Shown: positions 10,530 to 21,018 of the stretch, piece by piece
Layout of the letters: each line of letters starts with the position of its first letter
How positions within the stretch are numbered: the stretch's first letter is position 1
NCBI RefSeq assembly: GCF_035573695.1
Contig: NZ_CP121694.1
Location: forward strand, 1,712,501-1,776,500
Origin: Metallumcola ferriviriculae
GTDB lineage: Bacteria; Bacillota; JADQBR01
Direction: 5' to 3'
DNA: 64,000 bases
The notes under the pieces: model-generated
The model's database searches: none
Seen by the model: only the letters and a program-made list of their open reading frames with translations
Told to the model about the DNA's origin: nothing
Translations under genes and position numbers: made by a program

Positions 10530-10601
10530 CAAAGTTTCTTTTTCCTCAAATTAGTGCATAATATAGAGTGTATTGAATTTGCTAAACGGAGGTGGTACAA
10601 T

Positions 10602-10835
10602 ATGGGTAAGGGAGAAAAGGCTTGCAAAAATAAGGGGGAGAAAAATATGCAAGCATTAGCAAAAAAAACGAGAGATTCTTTTACAGATTTTCTAGCTAAA
10701 AACAGAGCCAAAATAATTCGTACAACTGAAGCAAATTCAGCTAAAACTAAAAAGGGTATCATCACTCTGTCTAAAGAAGACTCTTGGAGAAATGAGAATG
10801 AATGGGACGAGATTTATAAAGATTCTCGTAAATAA
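10602..10835 (+). CDS. Probable antitoxin of the PemK/MazF module
   Basis: A small basic protein of 77 residues directly upstream of a PemK/MazF toxin gene, separated by 3 bp. The start at 10602 has an excellent GGAGGTGG; an internal ATG at 10647 with GGGGGAG would give 62 residues. No family is recognised with certainty. The C-terminal half (TKKGIITLSKEDSWRNENEW) is acidic and probably wraps the toxin, as MazE-type tails do. Position immediately before the toxin is the main argument. It is the first gene after the L1 repeat boundary at 10529. Confidence 0.6.
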   Translation: MGKGEKACKNKGEKNMQALAKKTRDSFTDFLAKNRAKIIRTTEANSAKTKKGIITLSKEDSWRNENEWDEIYKDSRK

Positions 10836-10838
10836 ATT

Positions 10839-11174
10839 ATGATAATTGCTCCAGGTGAAGTATGGTTCGCAAAATTTCCTCTTGAAGAAGATACTACGCA
10901 ATTTCTTCCTAGACCAGTAGTTGTATTAGATGTTGAAACCTTAGAGGTTCTCTCAGTAAAGGTGACTAAAGCTGACCCAAGGGATAACGATGATTACGAT
11001 ACCCCCATAGTTTTTTGGCAACAAGCCCATCTTCGATATAAATCTACAGCAAGGGTGTCAAAAACCATGCTGCTAGACAAAACTCAATTTGACTTTAAAA
11101 TAGGAAGCTTACATCCTGACGATTTCGTTGAAATACAGAATAAGTTCATGAAATTCATTAGTGATACAGAATAA
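10839..11174 (+). CDS. PemK/MazF-family toxin (mRNA interferase type)
   Basis: A 111-residue protein with the PemK/MazF-like SH3-barrel start: PGEVWFAKFPLEED followed by FLPRPVVVLD, then a second-half KVTKADPRDNDDYDTPI. In the family this fold cleaves mRNA, and the conserved Arg after the first strand (here RPVVVL) is part of the active site. It pairs with the small gene upstream as a type II toxin-antitoxin module. The sequence is divergent from classical MazF, so RNase activity is likely but unproven. A terminator hairpin follows at 11354. Confidence 0.72.
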   Translation: MIIAPGEVWFAKFPLEEDTTQFLPRPVVVLDVETLEVLSVKVTKADPRDNDDYDTPIVFWQQAHLRYKSTARVSKTMLLDKTQFDFKIGSLHPDDFVEIQNKFMKFISDTE

Positions 11175-11353: not shown

Positions 11354-11382
11354 GCACCCTGTTTAGGGTGCTTCATTATTTT
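11354..11382 (+). terminator. Hairpin between the toxin module and the type I operon
   Basis: GCACCCT (11354-11360), loop GTTT, AGGGTGC (11365-11371), then a T-rich stretch. The rest of 11175-11469 shows only the promoter described next. Confidence 0.65.
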
Positions 11383-11404
11383 CATGTATATTAAAAGTTT
11401 AGTA

Positions 11405-11434
11405 TTGACATACTAAAAATAAAGAAAGTATAAT
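11405..11434 (+). promoter_or_regulatory. Promoter of the type I restriction operon
   Basis: TTGACA (11405-11410) and TATAAT (11429-11434) with an 18-bp spacer, both perfect sigma-A consensus boxes, 36 bp before the first gene at 11470. Confidence 0.85.
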
Positions 11435-11469: not shown

Positions 11470-13053
11470 ATGTACAAGAATATTGATCTAGCTTTAAATG
11501 TCCTATATCAAAGGCAGCTATCTTCCAGAGAGCAGTTACTGAAAGAAATGCTTCGTGTAAAAATGACGTTGCTGGAGCTTGAAAAAGAATCGAAAATTAT
11601 GGGCGACAAAGACAAGCTTTTTCAGCTCATGAAGAAAACTACCGAAGATGAATTAGGCTTCTTCCCGGCAGATAGAGATGATTTTTGGGTTATCTTTGAA
11701 GCGTTAAAAGACATAGATCTCGTTGATTTTACCCTTGAGATTTATAGGAATGACCGAATGGGTACAGTCATTTCACCAATATACTTAAGCTCATATATTA
11801 CTGATAGAATAGAGAGCCTGCAGCCGAAGAAAATTCTTATAACCGAAGCAGAAAAACATTTATCTGGTCTTAAAGAAATGATCAGGCGCTTGCAAGATTC
11901 CGAGATATCATTAACAACTCAGCTAAAACCAATGCACATCTTGCTGCAGTTGGCTTTTGGTAAGTATAAGAATGTCAAAATCCGATTTGAGTCTATCTAT
12001 ACAGGATCTCTGAAGGATGAAAAATATGATTATATATACTCGCTGCCGACCTTTGGACATAAACCGGATGAGGTAGGCAAAACGTTTTTGACAAGGGAAA
12101 GCGATGGTATCGCTGTAGAAAATATGCTGGGACACCTTGATGATAAAGCCACCCTGGATATCATCCTTCCAGCCAAAATCACCTTTGCCGGTTTGGGCTA
12201 TGAGAAACTAAGGTCATATATCACAGAACACTTTCAAGTGGAGAGTATTTATATTTTACCTGATGTAACATTTAGACCGGCAACGGCTATTAAAACCTAT
12301 TTGTTCGCAATTACAGCAAAAAGCAAGGCAAATATTGAAATCGGAACATTGAAACTTAATAAAAAAGATTTTGAGATAAGAGATAAAAGGGAAATATCTA
12401 CAAAAGAGTTTCTGTCTTATAAGGATTGGCGTATTGAGCTATTATTGGCAGATGACGATGAGAACATTCAAAGGTTCAAAAGTTCTAATGTCCAAAAAGT
12501 GAAGCTGAAAGATGTGGCCGAGGTGTTCAGAGGAAAGTCCATCCTGAAAAAGGACACTTCTCTTGGCAGCATATCTATCCTCAATATCTCCAATATCGAG
12601 GAGGGTGAGATTAACTATTCAGGCATGGACACCATTGATGAAGAAGAGCGAAAAGTTAAGCGGTATGAGCTGTATACCGGCGATGTGGTCCTCTCATGCA
12701 GAGGAACTGCCATAAAATCTGCCGTATTTGAAGCCCGGGATAAAACGATCATTGTATCGGCAAATCTGATTGTGATCCGGCCAAAGGAAAAGGTCAAAGG
12801 GGAGTATATCAAGATCTTTTTTGAAAGTCCCATAGGAGTGGCCATCATTAAAAGCTTGCAGAGGGGCACCACCATTATGAATATCAACCACGCTGATATC
12901 ATGGAAATGGAGATTCCATTACTACCTATTAGCAAACAGCAGGAAATGATGGATAGATATCACGAAGAACTAAGTATATACAAAGATACCATCAAAACAG
13001 CAGAAAAACGATGGATGCAAATAAAGGACAGTATTTATAAAGATCTAATATAG
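11470..13053 (+). CDS. Degenerate N6-methylase domain fused to an HsdS-type recognition domain
   Basis: A 527-residue protein heading the type I operon. Residues about 150-310 align in order with the second half of Hsd[12 protein letters not shown] stands where HsdM has [30 protein letters not shown] where HsdM has the VLANGSM block, and [23 protein letters not shown] where it has [20 protein letters not shown]. The NPPF catalytic motif is replaced (SLPTF near residue 190) and no DPxxGSGG SAM-binding loop is visible. From about residue 343 to the end it is a type I specificity (TRD) domain, closing with [17 protein letters not shown]. It should therefore bind DNA but not methylate it. GGGGGCC lies before the ATG. 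A role as alternative specificity or regulatory subunit is inferred. Confidence 0.72.
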
Positions 13054-13066
13054 GGGGGGCATAACT

Positions 13067-14623
13067 ATGGCTATAAATTTAGAGTTTGAAAACAAATTAT
13101 GGGAAATGGCAGATAAATTGAGAGGTAACATTCAGCCTTCGGATTATAAGGACGTGGTCCTTGGTCTCATTTTTTTAAAATATATCTCCGACAGCTTTGA
13201 AGAAAAATACAACGAATTGGTGGCAGAGGGCGATGGTTTTGAAGAAGACAGAGATGCTTATGTAGAGGATAATGTTTTCTTTGTGCCACCTAGTGCCAGA
13301 TGGGACTTTATCAAAAAAAGCGCCAAACAAAATACCATCGGACAAATTATCGATGAAGCGATGATTGTCATTGAGCGAGAGAATAAAAGCTTAAAAGGGG
13401 TACTGCCCAAAAATTATGCCAGACCGGAACTGGATAAAACGAAACTCGGTGAACTTATTGATTTATTCTCATTTAACCTTGGCAATAAAGAGGCTAAGGC
13501 ACAGGATATTTTGGGCAGGGTTTACGAATACTTTTTGGGTAAGTTTGGTTCCAGTGAAGGGGAATTCTATACCCCGCCTACTATCGTTAAGCTCCTGGTC
13601 GGCATGATTGAGCCTTATAAAGGCAGAGTATACGACCCCTGCTGCGGATCCGGCGGCATGTTTGTACAGTCAGCAAGATTTGTTGAAGAACACCAAGGAA
13701 GGAAAGACGATATTTATATCTACGGTCAGGAATATACTTCTAACACTTGGAGACTTTGCAAAATGAATCTTGCCATTCGGGGGATTGACGGAAACCTGGG
13801 TGGAAGAGATGCGGATACCTTTGGTAACGACCTACATAAAAACCTTAGGGCCGATTATATTTTAGCCAATCCACCGTTTAACGTGAGTGATTATACTTTG
13901 ATACAAGACGACTCCCGTTGGAAGTACGGAATACCACCAAAAAATAATGCCAACTACGCTTGGATAGAGCATATTATCAGTAAGCTTTCACCTAAGGGTG
14001 TAGCAGGTTTTGTACTGGCCAATGGTTCCATGAGTACAGCCACCAAGGCGGAAGCTGAGATTAGAAAAAACATTATCGAAGCAGGGCTGGTGGACTGTAT
14101 TATCACCATGCCGCCTAATCTTTTTTATAATGTAACCATTCCCGTTTGCCTTTGGTTTATTTCTAAAAATAGAGATAACAGAAAAGATAAAATCCTCTTT
14201 ATTGATGCCCGTAAAATGGGAACCATGGTAACCCGTAAACACCGAGAGCTTTCCGATGAGGAAATTAAGCAAATTTATGATACATACCATAATTGGAGAG
14301 ATATGAATTCTGTAAACAGTCAACTATTAGCTGCTGAAAAAGCGGATTTGTATGAAGTGAAAAAGTCAAAGGAGAAAAAAATTAGTGATTATAAAGATAT
14401 CCAAGGTTTTTGTAAATCTGCAAGTATTGAAGAAGCCAGAGGCCATGACTACATCCTAACCCCTGGTAGATATGTAGGAATAGAAGAAGCGGAAGACGAC
14501 GGTGAGCCCTTTGATAAAAAGATGATAAGGCTGACAGAAGAGCTTTCTGAAATGTTTGCCAAATCCCATAAGCTGGAGGAAGAAATCAAGCAGCGATTGG
14601 GGGCGATTGGCTATGAGATCTGA
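13067..14623 (+). CDS. hsdM: Type I restriction-modification methylase subunit HsdM
   Basis: A 518-residue N6-adenine DNA methyltransferase subunit. The N-terminal helical domain ([18 protein letters not shown]) is followed by the SAM-binding motif [11 protein letters not shown] near residue 188 and the catalytic ANPPFN near residue 266, both intact, then the conserved [14 protein letters not shown] block. With HsdS it methylates the recognition site, and with HsdR it forms the restriction complex. It starts 13 bp after the degenerate methylase gene behind a GGGGGG run. Its last 11 codons overlap the rhuM start, and its final 83 bp are repeated just before hsdS. Confidence 0.95.
14541..14623 (+). 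repeat. hsdM 3'-end repeat, left copy
   Basis: The last 83 bp of hsdM, imperfectly repeated at 15645-15727. Shared blocks include ATGTTTGCCAAATCCCA and GGGGGCGATTGG. The two copies bracket rhuM. Confidence 0.85.
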
Positions 14624-15626
14624 AAACAAATCTGAAATCTTGATGTATCAAACGGAAGATGGGTCGACTAAAATTAGCGTAACCATAGAACAAGAAACGG
14701 TTTGGCTATCATTAAATGATATGGCTGAACTTTTTCAGAGAGATAAGTCCGGTATTTCACGTCATATAAAAAACATCTATGATGAAGGTGAGCTGCAAGA
14801 GAAAGGAACTATTGCATATTTTGCAACAGTTCAAAATGAAGGTAGTAGAAGCGTCGAAAGGAATGTCGCTTATTATAATCTGGATGTTATTATCTCTGTC
14901 GGTTATCGAGTGAAGTCTCATAGAGGTACTCAGTTTAGGATTTGGGCTCTGCAGATATTAAAGGAATACATTATTAAAGGTTTTGCAATGAATGATGACC
15001 TGCTAAAAAAAGCAGGCGGCGGCAATTATTTCAAAGAATTGCTGGAACGTATTAGAGATATTCGTTCCAGTGAAAAAGTATTTTACAGACAAGTGCTAGA
15101 TATTTATGCCACAAGTATAGATTATGATCCAAATGATGAAAGTTCAAAACTTTTCTTTAAAACTGTACAGAATAAGATGCATTATGCAGCCCATGGACAT
15201 ACAGCAGCAGAAATAATCTATCTGAGAGCAACTGCTGAGGAGACTTTCATGGGTATGACTGCATTTGAGGGGGAAAAGCCGAAGAAATCAGATGCATCTA
15301 TCGCCAAAAATTATTTAAAAGAAGAGGAAATTAATATTTTAAACAGGCTTGTTACAGCCTATCTAGAATTCGCAGAGCTGCAGGCAATCCGACAAAAACC
15401 CATGTATATGAAAGACTGGATTACAAGGTTAGATGATTTTATCAGAATGAGTGGCAGCGAATTATTACAAAATGCGGGTAGAATCAGTCATGAACAGGCT
15501 AAAATAAAAGCCGAACTGGAATATGAAAAATATTGGGAGCAAACCAAAGATGAGCTGTCAAAAGTAGAAAAAGATTTCCTCAAAGGTATAAAAGAAGCTC
15601 AGAAAAAGCTGGAAAAAAAGCGGTGA
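14613..15626 (+). CDS. RhuM family protein
   Basis: A 337-residue member of the RhuM (COG3943) family, named after a Salmonella pathogenicity-island gene and very often embedded in type I restriction loci; its biochemical role is not established. The N-terminal part ([22 protein letters not shown]) looks like a Bro-N/KilA-type DNA-binding helix-turn-helix. Conserved blocks [28 protein letters not shown] and [20 protein letters not shown] follow. The ATG at 14613 overlaps the end of hsdM. A coiled-coil tail ends in KKLEKKR. The gene is bracketed by hsdM 3'-end repeats, so it behaves as a separable cassette. A broken copy lies at 46379-46602. Confidence 0.85.
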
Positions 15627-15644: not shown

Positions 15645-15727
15645 AGTGTTCCGAGATGTTTGCCAAATCCCAAAAACTAGAGGAGGAAATCACGCGGAGA
15701 TGGGGGGCGATTGGGTATGAGGTCTAG
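15645..15727 (+). repeat. hsdM 3'-end repeat, right copy
   Basis: Imperfect copy of 14541-14623 carrying a second, non-translated hsdM tail ending in TAG. It supplies the original hsdM/hsdS overlap, with the hsdS ATG at 15717 in the same context as the rhuM ATG. Confidence 0.85.
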
Positions 15728-16955
15728 TGAATGGAGAGAGGTTAAGCTCGGAGAAGCAGCAATTGAAATAATAGATGGTGATAGAGGAAAAAATTATCCA
15801 AATGGTTCTGATTTTAGTAATAAAGGATATTGTCTTTTTCTAAACGCTAAAAATGTAACATCAGCTGGATTTGCTTTTGATGAAACACAGTTTATCACAA
15901 AAGAAAAAGATGAACTGTTGCGAAAAGGTAAGTTAATAAGAAAAGATATAGTTATGACAACAAGGGGCACGGTCGGGAATGTTGCTTATTATAAACATGA
16001 TATTCCTTATGAATACATGCGAATTAATTCCGGAATGGTTATATTGAGATGTGATGAAAGTAAGATTTATCCAAAGTATGGATATTGGTTACTTAAATCA
16101 CCAATTATCCAAGATCAGATTTTGGCAATTAGAACAGGAAGTGCACAACCCCAATTACCAATATCTATTATGCGTAATTTGGAGTTTTTGCTTCCTTCAA
16201 TTAAGGAACAAAAAGCCATCGCAGACACCCTCTCCTGCCTTGACGACAAAATTGAACTCAACAATAAGATTAACAAAACCCTTGAGGAAGTGGCACAGGC
16301 GATATTCAAAAGCTGGTTTGTGGATTTTGAGCCGTTTAAGGATGGAGAGTTTGAAGATAGTGAGTTAGGCAGGATTCCTAAGGGGTGGAGAGTCGGAACT
16401 TTGGGTGATATTGCAAGTATCACAATGGGACAATCCCCAAAGGGTAGCAGTTATAATGAAAACAATGATGGTACAGTATTTTATCAAGGTAGGACAGATT
16501 TTGGTAAAAGGTTTCCAACAATTCGGTTGTATACAACAGAAGCGAAAAGAATGGCTCACAGAGGGGATATTTTATTAAGTGTAAGAGCTCCTGTTGGAGA
16601 TATTAATGTTGCAATCGAGGATTGTTGTATAGGTCGTGGCTTGGCATCATTAAGAAGCAAGAACGAATGCAACTCCTATTTGTTGTATCAATTAATAAAT
16701 CTAAAGGATGGCTTTAATGTCTATAATGGTGAAGGAACAGTATTTGGTTCGATTAATAAGGATACTTTGAATGATATTCGAGTAATAATTCCACCAAATG
16801 ATATTATCCAAAAATTTCAAAATAGCTATGGAAGATTTGATGTTATGTTTGAGAATAATTCAATACAGATAAGAACACTTACTGCAATCCGTGATTCTCT
16901 ATTGCCAGAACTCATGTCCGGTAAAATCCGAGTTCCAATTGAGGAGGTGGAGTGA
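15717..16955 (+). CDS. hsdS: Type I restriction-modification specificity subunit HsdS
   Basis: A 412-residue specificity subunit with two target-recognition domains, each reading one half of a bipartite DNA site. TRD1 covers about residues 1-160. The central conserved helix contains LPSIKEQKAIADTLSCLDDK and IELNNKINKTLEEVAQAIFK, ending in FKSWFVDFEPF. TRD2 begins at LGRIPKGWRVGTLGDIASIT, and the protein ends LLPELMSGKIRV. The start ATG at 15717 corresponds to the rhuM start in the repeated hsdM end; a TTG at 15711 is possible. The stop is directly followed by the KilA-N gene. Confidence 0.92.
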   Translation: MRSSEWREVKLGEAAIEIIDGDRGKNYPNGSDFSNKGYCLFLNAKNVTSAGFAFDETQFITKEKDELLRKGKLIRKDIVMTTRGTVGNVAYYKHDIPYEYMRINSGMVILRCDESKIYPKYGYWLLKSPIIQDQILAIRTGSAQPQLPISIMRNLEFLLPSIKEQKAIADTLSCLDDKIELNNKINKTLEEVAQAIFKSWFVDFEPFKDGEFEDSELGRIPKGWRVGTLGDIASITMGQSPKGSSYNENNDGTVFYQGRTDFGKRFPTIRLYTTEAKRMAHRGDILLSVRAPVGDINVAIEDCCIGRGLASLRSKNECNSYLLYQLINLKDGFNVYNGEGTVFGSINKDTLNDIRVIIPPNDIIQKFQNSYGRFDVMFENNSIQIRTLTAIRDSLLPELMSGKIRVPIEEVE

Positions 16956-17837
16956 GTGCCTAAGGATAAAATTTTCAAGGCCACTATTAATGCGAAAGGC
17001 AAGGAAATTGCTATTTTCTCAACAGGTAATGATGATGATTATATCAGCCTGACTGATATAGCAAAATATAAGAGTAATGAGCCTAATGATGTTATTCGCA
17101 ACTGGATTAGGAGTAAGGATACTATTGAATTTTTAGGTTTATGGGAGCAAATAAATAATCCAAATTTTAAACCCATCGAATTCGACGGGTTTAAAAATGA
17201 AGCAGGTAGAAACTCCTTTGTCTTGTCTCCGCAAAAATGGATAGAAACAACAAATGCCAGTGGTATAATCTCAAAATCAGGTCGTTATGGTGGTACTTAT
17301 GCCCATAAAGATATAGCTTTTGAATTTGCATCATGGGTATCTCCGGAATTTAAGCTATATATCATTAAAGACTACCAACGTTTAAAGACTGATGAAAATA
17401 GTAAATTATCCCTTGAATGGAATGTTAATCGGGTCCTTGCCAAGATTAATTATAAAATACATACCGATGCTATAAAGGAAACTTTAGTTTCAAATAATTT
17501 GACAGCTCAACAGATAGGAATAACCTATGCTAGTGAAGCAGATGTTTTAAATGTTGCTTTGTTTGGAAAGACAGCTAAAGAATGGCGAGATGAAAATTCA
17601 GAATTGAAAGGCAATATCAGAGATTATGCCACAATAGAACAGCTAATTGTAATGGTCAATTTAGAAAATATGAATGCTAATTTTATTCGACAAGGTTTAG
17701 CACAACATGAGAGGTTACTTGAACTTAATAAAATAGCAAGAACACAGCTAAAGTCATTGTTAAATAATAAGACTGTTAAAAAACTAGGCGATTTAAAACC
17801 TAAAATTACAGGTGGTGCAATAAATGGCAAGGAGTAA
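16956..17837 (+). CDS. KilA-N domain protein
   Basis: A 293-residue protein with an N-terminal KilA-N DNA-binding domain of phage and large DNA virus type: [19 protein letters not shown], then [18 protein letters not shown], then [20 protein letters not shown] and [13 protein letters not shown]. The C-terminal part is helical and unassigned. It starts at GTG 16956, immediately after the hsdS stop with GAGGAGGTGG, and its end overlaps hsdR by 14 bp, so it is translationally coupled between hsdS and hsdR. Such genes are found in type I loci, but their part in restriction or its control is not known. Confidence 0.82.
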
Positions 17838-20800
17838 TTTTTATGAATCCCACTTAGAAGAAGCGACCTTGGAGTGGTTTGAAGAACTGGGCTATGAAGT
17901 GGTTTTTGCCCCGGATCTTGCACCGGATGGAGAGTATCCGGAGCGTGAAGACTACGGAGATGTTATCTTGGCTGAGCGCCTAAAAGAAGCCCTTGCCCGG
18001 ATCAACCCAAAGTTTCCAATCGATGCAATAGAAGATGCCTTCAGGCAGATTATGATCCCTCAAAGTCCGAGCCTTATCATGAACAATAAAGCATTTCAAA
18101 AGATGATCACCGATGGAATTGATGTTCAGGTGAAACAGGCCGATGGTGGCTATCGCACAGAAAAGGCCTATGTATTCGACTTTGAAAAACCGCTGAACAA
18201 TGAATTTATGGTAGCCAACCAGTTTACAATTGTTGAGCATGGCGTGGAAAAGCGCCCGGATGTGGTGGCCTTTGTTAATGGGATTCCTTTGGTGGTCATT
18301 GAACTGAAAAGTGCCAGTGATGAAAATGTTGATATAACCGATGCCTATAATCAGCTTCAAACTTACAAAATGACTATTCCTTCCCTATTTACTTATAACT
18401 CCTTTATGGTCACCAGTGATGGTATCAATGCCAGAGCGGGCACCCTGACCTCCGATGAAGATCGCTTTATGGCTTGGCGTAGCATTGATGGAGATGATGT
18501 AGCTTCCGTGTCTATTCCGCAACTTGAAGTGCTGATTAAGGGAATGTTTCAGCGCGACCGCTTGCTGGATATTATTAAACATTTTCTTCTCTTCCAAAGT
18601 GATGGCAAGGATACGATAAAAATACTGGCAGGATATCATCAATATAATGCAGTTAATAAAGCAGTAGAAAGCACTGAACGGGCCACCATGGAACATGGTG
18701 ACAGGCGGATTGGTGTGATTTGGCATACCCAAGGCAGTGGGAAGAGCCTGTCCATGGTATTCTATGCCGGCAAACTGGTCATAAGTGAAGAACTGGAGAA
18801 TCCAACCATTGTCGTCATTACAGACAGAAACGATCTGGACGACCAGCTTTTTAGTACTTTTCTTAAAAGCAAGGATTTATTAAGAAGCACACCGGTACAG
18901 TCAGAAGACAGAGCGCATTTGAGAGAGCTGCTGAATAACCGTACCAGTGGCGGTATTATCTTTACAACAATTCATAAGTTTGCTCCTTTTACCAATGAAA
19001 TTAAAGAAGGCAATCCGTCTTATAAAAGTTTGGAGCAGGCAGCTGAAAGCTATGCTGATTATGCAGGCGACATGGTCCTCACGGACAGAAAAAATGTCAT
19101 TGTCATTGCAGACGAAGCTCACCGCAGCCAGTACGGTTTTGGAGCGGACGTTGTGAAGGGTAAAAATGAAGTAGATGTGAAATATGGCTATGCCAAGTAT
19201 ATGCGTGATAGCCTTCCCAATGCATCTTACATAGGCTTTACAGGAACGCCGGTTGAACTTACTGATAAAAATACAAGAGCAGTATTTGGTGATTATATCG
19301 ATGTTTATGATATGACTAGAGCTGTGGAAGACGGCACAACCGTGAAGATTTTTTATGAAAGCAGAATTGCTAAGCTTGAGCTGCCGGAAGAAATGAAACC
19401 AAAGGTCGATACCGAGTATAATGAAATCACCGAGCACCAGGAATATAGTCAAAAAGAAAAACTTAAGAGCAAATGGGCCAGACTTGAAGCCATAGTGGGT
19501 GCCAAGCAGAGAGTAGTACAAATTGCCAAAGATATTGTAGCACATTTTGAAAAGCGTGAGCAGGCGCAGGAGAACGAAGGCGGTAAGGCCATGATCGTCG
19601 CCATGAGCCGGAGGATTGCCATCGATATTTACAGGGAAATTGTTGTACTTCGACCGGAATGGCACAGTGACGAATTAATGGCTGGAAAGATTAAGGTTGT
19701 TATGACCGGCAGCTCATCTGATCCGGCAGACTGGCAGCCGTTTATCGGGACCAAGGCCAACCGGGAAACACTGGCTAAACGAATGAAAGATAGAAATGAT
19801 GAACTGAAGATTGTGATTGTGCGTGATATGTGGCTTACCGGATTTGATGTGCCAAGTATGCATACAATGTATATCGATAAGCCAATGAGCGGCCATAACT
19901 TGATGCAGGCTATTGCAAGGGTTAATCGAGTATTTAAAGATAAGCAAGGCGGACTTGTTGTTGACTATATCGGTATCGCGGAAAACCTGAAAGAAGCCTT
20001 AGCGAAATACACAGAGAGTGACAAGAAGACTACCGGTGTAGACACCGAAGTGGCATCCCAGGTTCTCTTAGAAAAGTATGACCTGATTAAAGAACTGCTT
20101 CATGGCCATGACTATAGTAAATTCTTTACTGGCAAGCCAAGCGAGAAAATGCAGGCCATTGTAGAAACCATGGATTATATTATCGGACTTCGTGAGGAAA
20201 GAAAGAACGATTATATTAAGCTGGTAACCGAATTGGCTCGGGCTTATTCCCTGTGTGCGACAACCGATATTGCTGAAAGCCTCAATATAGAAGTGGGCTT
20301 TCATAAGGCAGTCAAAGCAAGCCTTGTTAAAATGATCAGCGATGAAAATAAAAAGAAGACTACATCCCAGCTTGACAGTGAGCTCAACCAATTACTTTCC
20401 AAAGCCATATCCTCCAATGAAGTGGTAGATATTTTAGATTCCGTAGGTCTTTCCAAACCGAATATTGCAATTCTCTCAGATGAATTTCTTGAAGAAGTGA
20501 GAGGTATGAAGCAGAAAAACTTAGCTGTTGAGCTGTTAAACCGATTGCTCAAAGGGAATATCAAGACATTCTCAAGGCGTAACTTAGTTCAGTCGAAGAA
20601 GTTTTCCGAGCTTTTGGAGGCCTCCATCAGGAAGTATCAGAATAGAGCCATTGAAACCACTCAGGTTATTATGGAACTGATAGAGCTTGCCAAACAGATC
20701 AGTGAGGCGGAAAAACGCGGTGAAAGTACAGGATTAACAGCGGATGAATTAGCTTTTTACGACGCTATGGCTGAAAATGAATCAGCCAGGGAAGTGATGG

Positions 20801-21018
20801 GTGATGAAATCTTGGTGCAGATTGCAAAAGACCTGACGACATCTATTAAGAACAATATCAGCGTAGACTGGGCAATCCGTGAAAGTGTTCAGGCCAAAAT
20901 GAAAATGACCATAAAAAGGCTGCTAAAGAAATACGGTTACCCACCAGATAAGACGGCTAAAGCAGTGGATATTGTAATGGAGCAGACAAAGCTGATGTGC
21001 CAGAATGAGAGTAGGTAG
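17824..21018 (+). CDS. hsdR: Type I restriction endonuclease subunit HsdR
   Basis: A 1064-residue restriction subunit. The N-terminal nuclease domain shows [19 protein letters not shown] (about residues 143-162), the PD-(D/E)xK core. It is followed by the SF2 translocase motor with [11 protein letters not shown] near residue 299 and [12 protein letters not shown] near 427, then the helicase C-terminal half ([33 protein letters not shown]) and a helical domain that contacts HsdM. Size and motifs are complete, so restriction activity is likely. It cleaves DNA away from unmethylated sites after ATP-driven translocation. Its last 36 bp, through the stop, recur at 46605 in the right-flank repeat. 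Confidence 0.95.

Follow-up and report, generated by a model that had tools for sequence, protein, structure and literature searches.

In this work, we ask why a type I restriction operon should open with a gene that resembles a DNA methylase but lacks the motifs of one. The window (the whole stretch of 64,000 nucleotides that was analysed) contains such an operon, with genes in the order PSM, hsdM, RhuM, hsdS, KilA-N, hsdR. The first of these, an open reading frame of 527 codons with an ATG start (11470–13053, + strand; ORF call, Pfam, AlphaFold and structure alignment), is here called PSM, as it encodes a pseudo-methylase joined to a single HsdS-type recognition domain (TRD). After a gap of 13 bp it is followed by an intact hsdM (13067–14623, +; sequence and Pfam), which carries both DPCCGSGG and NPPF; further downstream lie hsdS with two TRDs (15711–16955, +; Pfam and TRD comparison) and hsdR (17824–21018, +; Pfam and NCBIfam). 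We propose, with a probability of about 0.83, that PSM, a catalytically dead methylase carrying one TRD, is dedicated to the autogenous control of its restriction operon, probably as a repressor. Given the short gap between PSM and hsdM, the entire operon would be under this control, provided that there is no internal promoter.

Two parts of the protein were recognized by Pfam. An N6_Mtase match covers residues 149–324, equivalent to profile positions 89–275 of 311 (21.8 bits, cutoff 20.4), and a single Methylase_S stretch covers residues 339–496 (E 9.9e-13), which gives one TRD and not two. The first-pass annotation had aligned the gene with the second half of HsdM only, and had named structure prediction as a check. 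In the AlphaFold model (pLDDT 90.3, pTM 0.84) an HsdM fold was indeed obtained, and residues 1–329 align with the whole of HsdM 3lkd (Z 22.7, rmsd 3.3 Å, 325 residues); as modelled, the HsdM-like fold is complete, though sequence detects only its second half. The remainder of that description stood, i.e. SLPTF in place of NPPF, no SAM loop and an HsdS-type TRD at the end of the chain. The SLPTF variant of motif IV occupies residues 191–195 (12040–12054, +; alignment), and at the position of motif I, where the neighbouring HsdM has DPCCGSGG, different residues without a glycine loop are found. Comparison of a PSM profile with an HsdM profile also placed LPTF against NPPF, but this alignment is weak alone (E 0.012), so it was the structure that carried the point. 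Judged from these motifs, SAM binding is predicted to be lost and the protein to be catalytically dead. PSM thus shares with HsdM the whole fold and the N6_Mtase match, and differs from it in both motifs and in the TRD fused on.

Within the chain, the pseudo-methylase Rossmann domain spans residues 96–330 (11755–12459, +; Pfam, AlphaFold model and structure alignment) and the TRD residues 340–485 (12487–12924, +; Pfam and identity comparison), the latter being the best conserved part of the protein. It is followed by a C-terminal helix, residues 487–526 (12928–13047, +; AlphaFold model), for which a role in dimerisation is proposed. The same order of methylase and TRD in one chain is known from M.TaqI, CamA and M.BseCI (Z 26.4 for M.TaqI and 22.2 for CamA), which are active enzymes, whereas PSM is predicted not to be one.

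Among 84,980 species genomes scanned, 64 PSM loci were found; these share descent, and their number overstates the independent evidence. The full-length proteins fall into two clades, A and B, with 100% support in the tree. Neither the N of NPPF nor the glycine loop is kept in any of the 52 aligned full-length relatives, while all of them have xPxF, with P193 and F195 invariant. A homologue with intact NPPF, by which the first-pass annotation would have recognized a merely mutated copy, was looked for and not found among the 52. The reading of PSM as a mutated copy of an active methylase is rejected on this count, as is that of an active type I methylase, the HsdM fold notwithstanding. As far as its sequence goes, PSM is a family of its own rather than a decayed copy. 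No family for it exists in Pfam, NCBIfam or PADLOC, and no phage records matching the protein were found. Assignment to the MADS defence system was also tried and failed, the score against NCBIfam MAD5 being 50.3 bits with a curated cutoff of 400 bits.

The suggested survey of how often the gene precedes hsdM was carried out as well: hsdM follows in 50 loci, whereas four loci with sufficient sequence (L023, L027, L033 and L073) showed none within the stretch covered. Most copies are accompanied by HsdM, HsdS and HsdR. The order in clade A is PSM-hsdM-(rhuM)-hsdS-(kilA-N)-hsdR, and in clade B PSM, a fusion of ADP-ribosylglycohydrolase and HsdM, hsdM, hsdS and hsdR. In most clade B loci (e.g. 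L058:11420-13834) the HsdM part of this second gene, to which the ADP-ribosylglycohydrolase domain is fused, retains NPPF, and the gene is followed by a further HsdM of normal type. Distant relatives of about 600 aa also head type I operons, e.g. on Lactococcus and Lactobacillus plasmids. At L013/L017 (G051:C3:18495-18871) a clade A PSM gene survives as fragments with frame changes.

What such a protein could recognize is indicated by its TRD. In the 15 operons with all four genes, mean pairwise identity of the PSM TRD is 72%, against 40–54% for the rest of PSM, while the two HsdS TRDs of the same operons show 22% and 25%. The PSM TRD appears to be under strong constraint, for which one constant target would be expected and no trading with HsdS. 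Although PSM has a TRD and long helix in common with HsdS, it was rejected as an HsdS subunit, as it has one conserved TRD where HsdS has two diversified ones. The earlier suggestion that this protein recognizes DNA without modifying it is supported by the loss of motifs together with the conservation of the TRD.

A candidate target, absent from the first-pass annotation, lies at the promoter of the operon. The putative operator (11398–11417; sequence and locus comparison) is the perfect palindrome TTTAGTAT-TGAC-ATACTAAA, placed over the -35 box. The promoter (11405–11434, +; sequence) consists of TTGACA (11405–11410) and TATAAT (11429–11434) with a spacing of 18 bp, which gives 12/12 consensus bases, and its TTGACA lies inside the 20-bp palindrome. 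A terminator-like hairpin (11354–11371, +; sequence) closes the upstream unit. In 29 clade A loci, TTTAGTAT-N4-ATACTAAA forms a sharp-edged 20-bp island of conservation, with 15 of the 20 positions at 97% or more. In 23 clade B loci the equivalent promoter has TTTGGTAT-N4-ATACCAAA, with a variable centre and an A to G change in the half-site. Since the architecture is kept there while the centre varies, the site is bipartite and more than a conserved -35 box. The half-site variant tracks the PSM clade, and the joint pattern of both clades is RGTAT-N4-ATACY.

Position of the site differs between loci. L034 and L035 have a palindrome with a different centre and the -35 located elsewhere; in these two and in clade B the -35 is preceded by the palindrome, whose centre is 41–54 bp from that of the -10, and the clade B distances are unphased to the helix. 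At L076 no clear operator was seen, and the operator region of L025 is masked with N. The distant relatives L101 and L099 have two such palindromes each; on the Lactococcus plasmid L101 (L101:6400-6624) one stands before the promoter and the other close to the start codon, each having a 5-bp spacer. As a separate observation, at L026, L027, L029, L035, L037, L045, L064, L053, L057 and L058 the operator arms are extended by 9–18 bp in perfect symmetry and with locus-specific sequence, perhaps through quasi-palindrome correction seeded by the core hairpin.

The exact palindrome is present as a single copy in the 3.72-Mb host genome. Among 199 genomes it was found in nine, one copy each, and in six of these directly at the PSM gene, i.e. 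in six of the seven PSM-bearing genomes; in the remaining three, which have no PSM, it lies at unrelated sites, among them a terminator. The reversed-pattern control gave 0/199. The seventh PSM-bearing genome (G089) has a degenerate half-site beside an intact one. G016 and G099, which belong to a single genus, contain the same operon with an 88%-identical HsdM and have neither PSM nor palindrome. A wider regulon in the host genome was not apparent, near matches numbering 30 against 36 for the reversed control in one search and 30 against 23 in the other.

The palindrome was also searched for in 2.9 million viral contigs, where the exact 20-mer gave two matches, each lying immediately upstream of a PSM gene (in one case the gene is cut by the end of the fetched piece). 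A protein search of these contigs gave five PSM loci, each with the palindrome, which in two of them has a single changed base (L171 was judged via its relative L065). With the relaxed N4 patterns, PSM adjoined 3/39 clade-B-type matches, 1/28 of clade A type (L166) and 0/32 of the control; such matches are mostly background, so that in viral contigs only the exact 20-mer (2/2) is a clean predictor. One contig with phage-structural-like genes (L167:4155-6983) carries a PSM variant and an hsdM-like ORF that are transcribed divergently, and the operator occupies the space separating the two.

As to the part of PSM that would read the palindrome, the closest solved relative is Esub1 (PDB 8vsq; 8vsr, 'Co-crystal structure of Prx with Esub1'). 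The TRD and long helix, which make up the C-terminal part of the PSM model, match 8vsq with Z 25.0 over 196 residues at 30–31% identity, and Esub1 scores 95–135 bits against full-length PSMs but 23 against the best HsdS, and is thus nearer to the PSM TRD. In Streptococcus, Esub1 is a solo TRD of 198 aa, and no restriction genes were found around its gene in the five genomes inspected. Among 20 Streptococcus loci, 15 have AGTAT-N4-ATAC[TC] over the -10 of the esub1 promoter, where 0.04 are expected, and a further four have GTAT-N4-ATAC. PSM therefore shows both marks of an Esub1-type TRD, being nearer to Esub1 than HsdS TRDs are and having RGTAT-N4-ATACY at its own promoter. The two proteins differ in that Esub1 is an orphan with no pseudo-methylase and no RM genes, whereas PSM has the pseudo-methylase and sits in an RM operon. 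Nothing but the TRD and its helix is common to the two, so the palindrome is most probably a TRD site, with the TRD itself as the likely reader. The esub1 gene (L125–L129, L105–L124) occurs in about 40 of the 197 Streptococcus genomes searched, and an extra GATACT half-site was noticed downstream. Prx, the streptococcal prophage protein paratox, may gain a meaning for its binding of Esub1 from such a role of the TRD.

In the mechanism we propose, two PSM copies would pair through their C-terminal helices (residues 487–526), like two half-S subunits, and each TRD would read one RGTAT half-site, which would place the dimer on its own promoter. The bulky dimer would exclude RNA polymerase and so exert negative feedback on PSM-hsdM-hsdS-hsdR; exclusion is expected because the site covers the -35 in clade A or the -10 in Esub1 loci. 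On entry into a new cell, the operon would at first be free of repression and later settle at a moderate level. Two features of an autogenous RM controller, a gene placed upstream in the operon and a conserved operator at its own promoter, are found in PSM.

The same binding might have the opposite sign, PSM acting as an activator of the operon, either in the manner of a low-dose C protein or as a first stage before repression. C proteins do both (PMC12707154), and where the site closely precedes the -35 (clade B, L034/L035) an activator could also be accommodated. On the other side, the clade A and Esub1 sites cover the -35 or -10 of near-consensus promoters which need no activator, and the unphased spacing in clade B argues against contact activation; we consider this possibility unlikely. 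Less probable again is that the palindrome serves some other regulator and PSM is an accessory of the enzyme, e.g. a structural partner of HsdM. In its favour, the comparison covered PSM as candidate reader, and HsdM, HsdS and HsdR accompany most copies; yet the Esub1 loci have the palindrome with no RM genes, operons with the same hsdM but without PSM are also without the palindrome, and the half-site tracks the PSM clade.

Still more doubtful, in our judgement, is a second methylase of fixed RGTAT-N4-ATACY specificity, formed by PSM lending its TRD to HsdM and leaving an epigenetic mark or methylating the promoter. HsdM is near PSM in most loci, the half-sites contain adenines, and the TRD and helix of PSM resemble those holding HsdM. 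However, the place of HsdM is already taken by the dead methylase of PSM, a 20-bp conserved footprint at one promoter far exceeds the length of a methylase site, and Esub1 has no partner methylase at all. Exchange of specificity with HsdS, as in inverting or recombining hsdS loci, was proposed in the first-pass annotation and would fit the HsdS-type TRD, but is rejected, PSM having a single TRD that is conserved while those of HsdS turn over. Of the other roles put forward there, sensing of methylation state found no support, the operator being constant although HsdS specificities differ between operons, and it is the regulator that the evidence selects.

Repression alone leaves the retention of a whole methylase fold unexplained, as a helix-turn-helix (HTH) would do. 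A speculative extension is that PSM combines repression with a guard function: because its M-S architecture is preserved, it would also be bound by anti-restriction proteins of phages (Ocr- or ArdA-like DNA mimics that bind type I methylases, or TRD binders), and its removal from the operator would turn the operon on. Capture through the TRD would then resemble the binding of Esub1 by Prx (PDB 8vsr). If true, the controller would double as a decoy of its own enzyme and so as a sensor, which would account for the retention of a dead methylase in place of an HTH.

Modes of RM regulation described so far include promoter methylation, HTH-fused active methylases, antisense RNA and C proteins, HsdC among them (PMC12707154), to which RptR, a further small repressor, has been added (PMC12255303). 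C proteins and HsdC of Mycoplasma type I systems (PMC5282649) stand upstream in the operon and bind its own promoter, and PSM is likewise placed. They are HTH proteins, HsdC acting on direct repeats, whereas PSM has a methylase fold and no HTH domain was matched in any of 52 members, which sets it outside the C protein family. An HTH-type gene occupies the slot of PSM in two related operons that lack it, clearly at L162 (HTH_3, E 1e-10) and as a borderline case at L163. RptR is a dedicated repressor tied to type I operons, the role proposed for PSM, but it is a small helical dimer of Gammaproteobacteria with TAGCTA sites, and identity with the 527-aa PSM was rejected on fold, size and operator. 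M.Ecl18kI, M.SsoII and M.EcoRII (PMC3874152, PMC12707154) are methylase-related proteins that repress their own promoter, as proposed for PSM; they combine an active enzyme with a separate HTH, both of which PSM lacks, its proposed reader being the TRD, and it was not assigned to this dual-function type.

Autogenous control of RM systems is known, and the use of a TRD as its DNA reader appears to be new; no description of a pseudo-methylase/TRD controller was found in the open-licence literature, though a prior one is possible. While the RM controllers described in the literature surveyed are HTH proteins, small helical proteins or active methylases with an HTH, here a specificity domain appears to have turned transcription factor and a methylase pseudoenzyme. 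The family is spread over many bacteria under the annotation 'N-6 DNA methylase', and the proposal would give these many misannotated genes a testable function. The fixed pair of TRD and target would also be a clean case from which to work out the TRD recognition code.

Some neighbouring genes deserve mention. RhuM (14556–15626, +) and KilA-N (16956–17837, +), optional passengers of the operon (Pfam and locus comparison), are inserted in the hsd operon of the window and correspond to the PADLOC candidate defence families PDC-S05 and PDC-S22. Just upstream of the operon, a PemK/MazF-like toxin gene and the small ORF preceding it (10554–11174) probably form a toxin-antitoxin pair.
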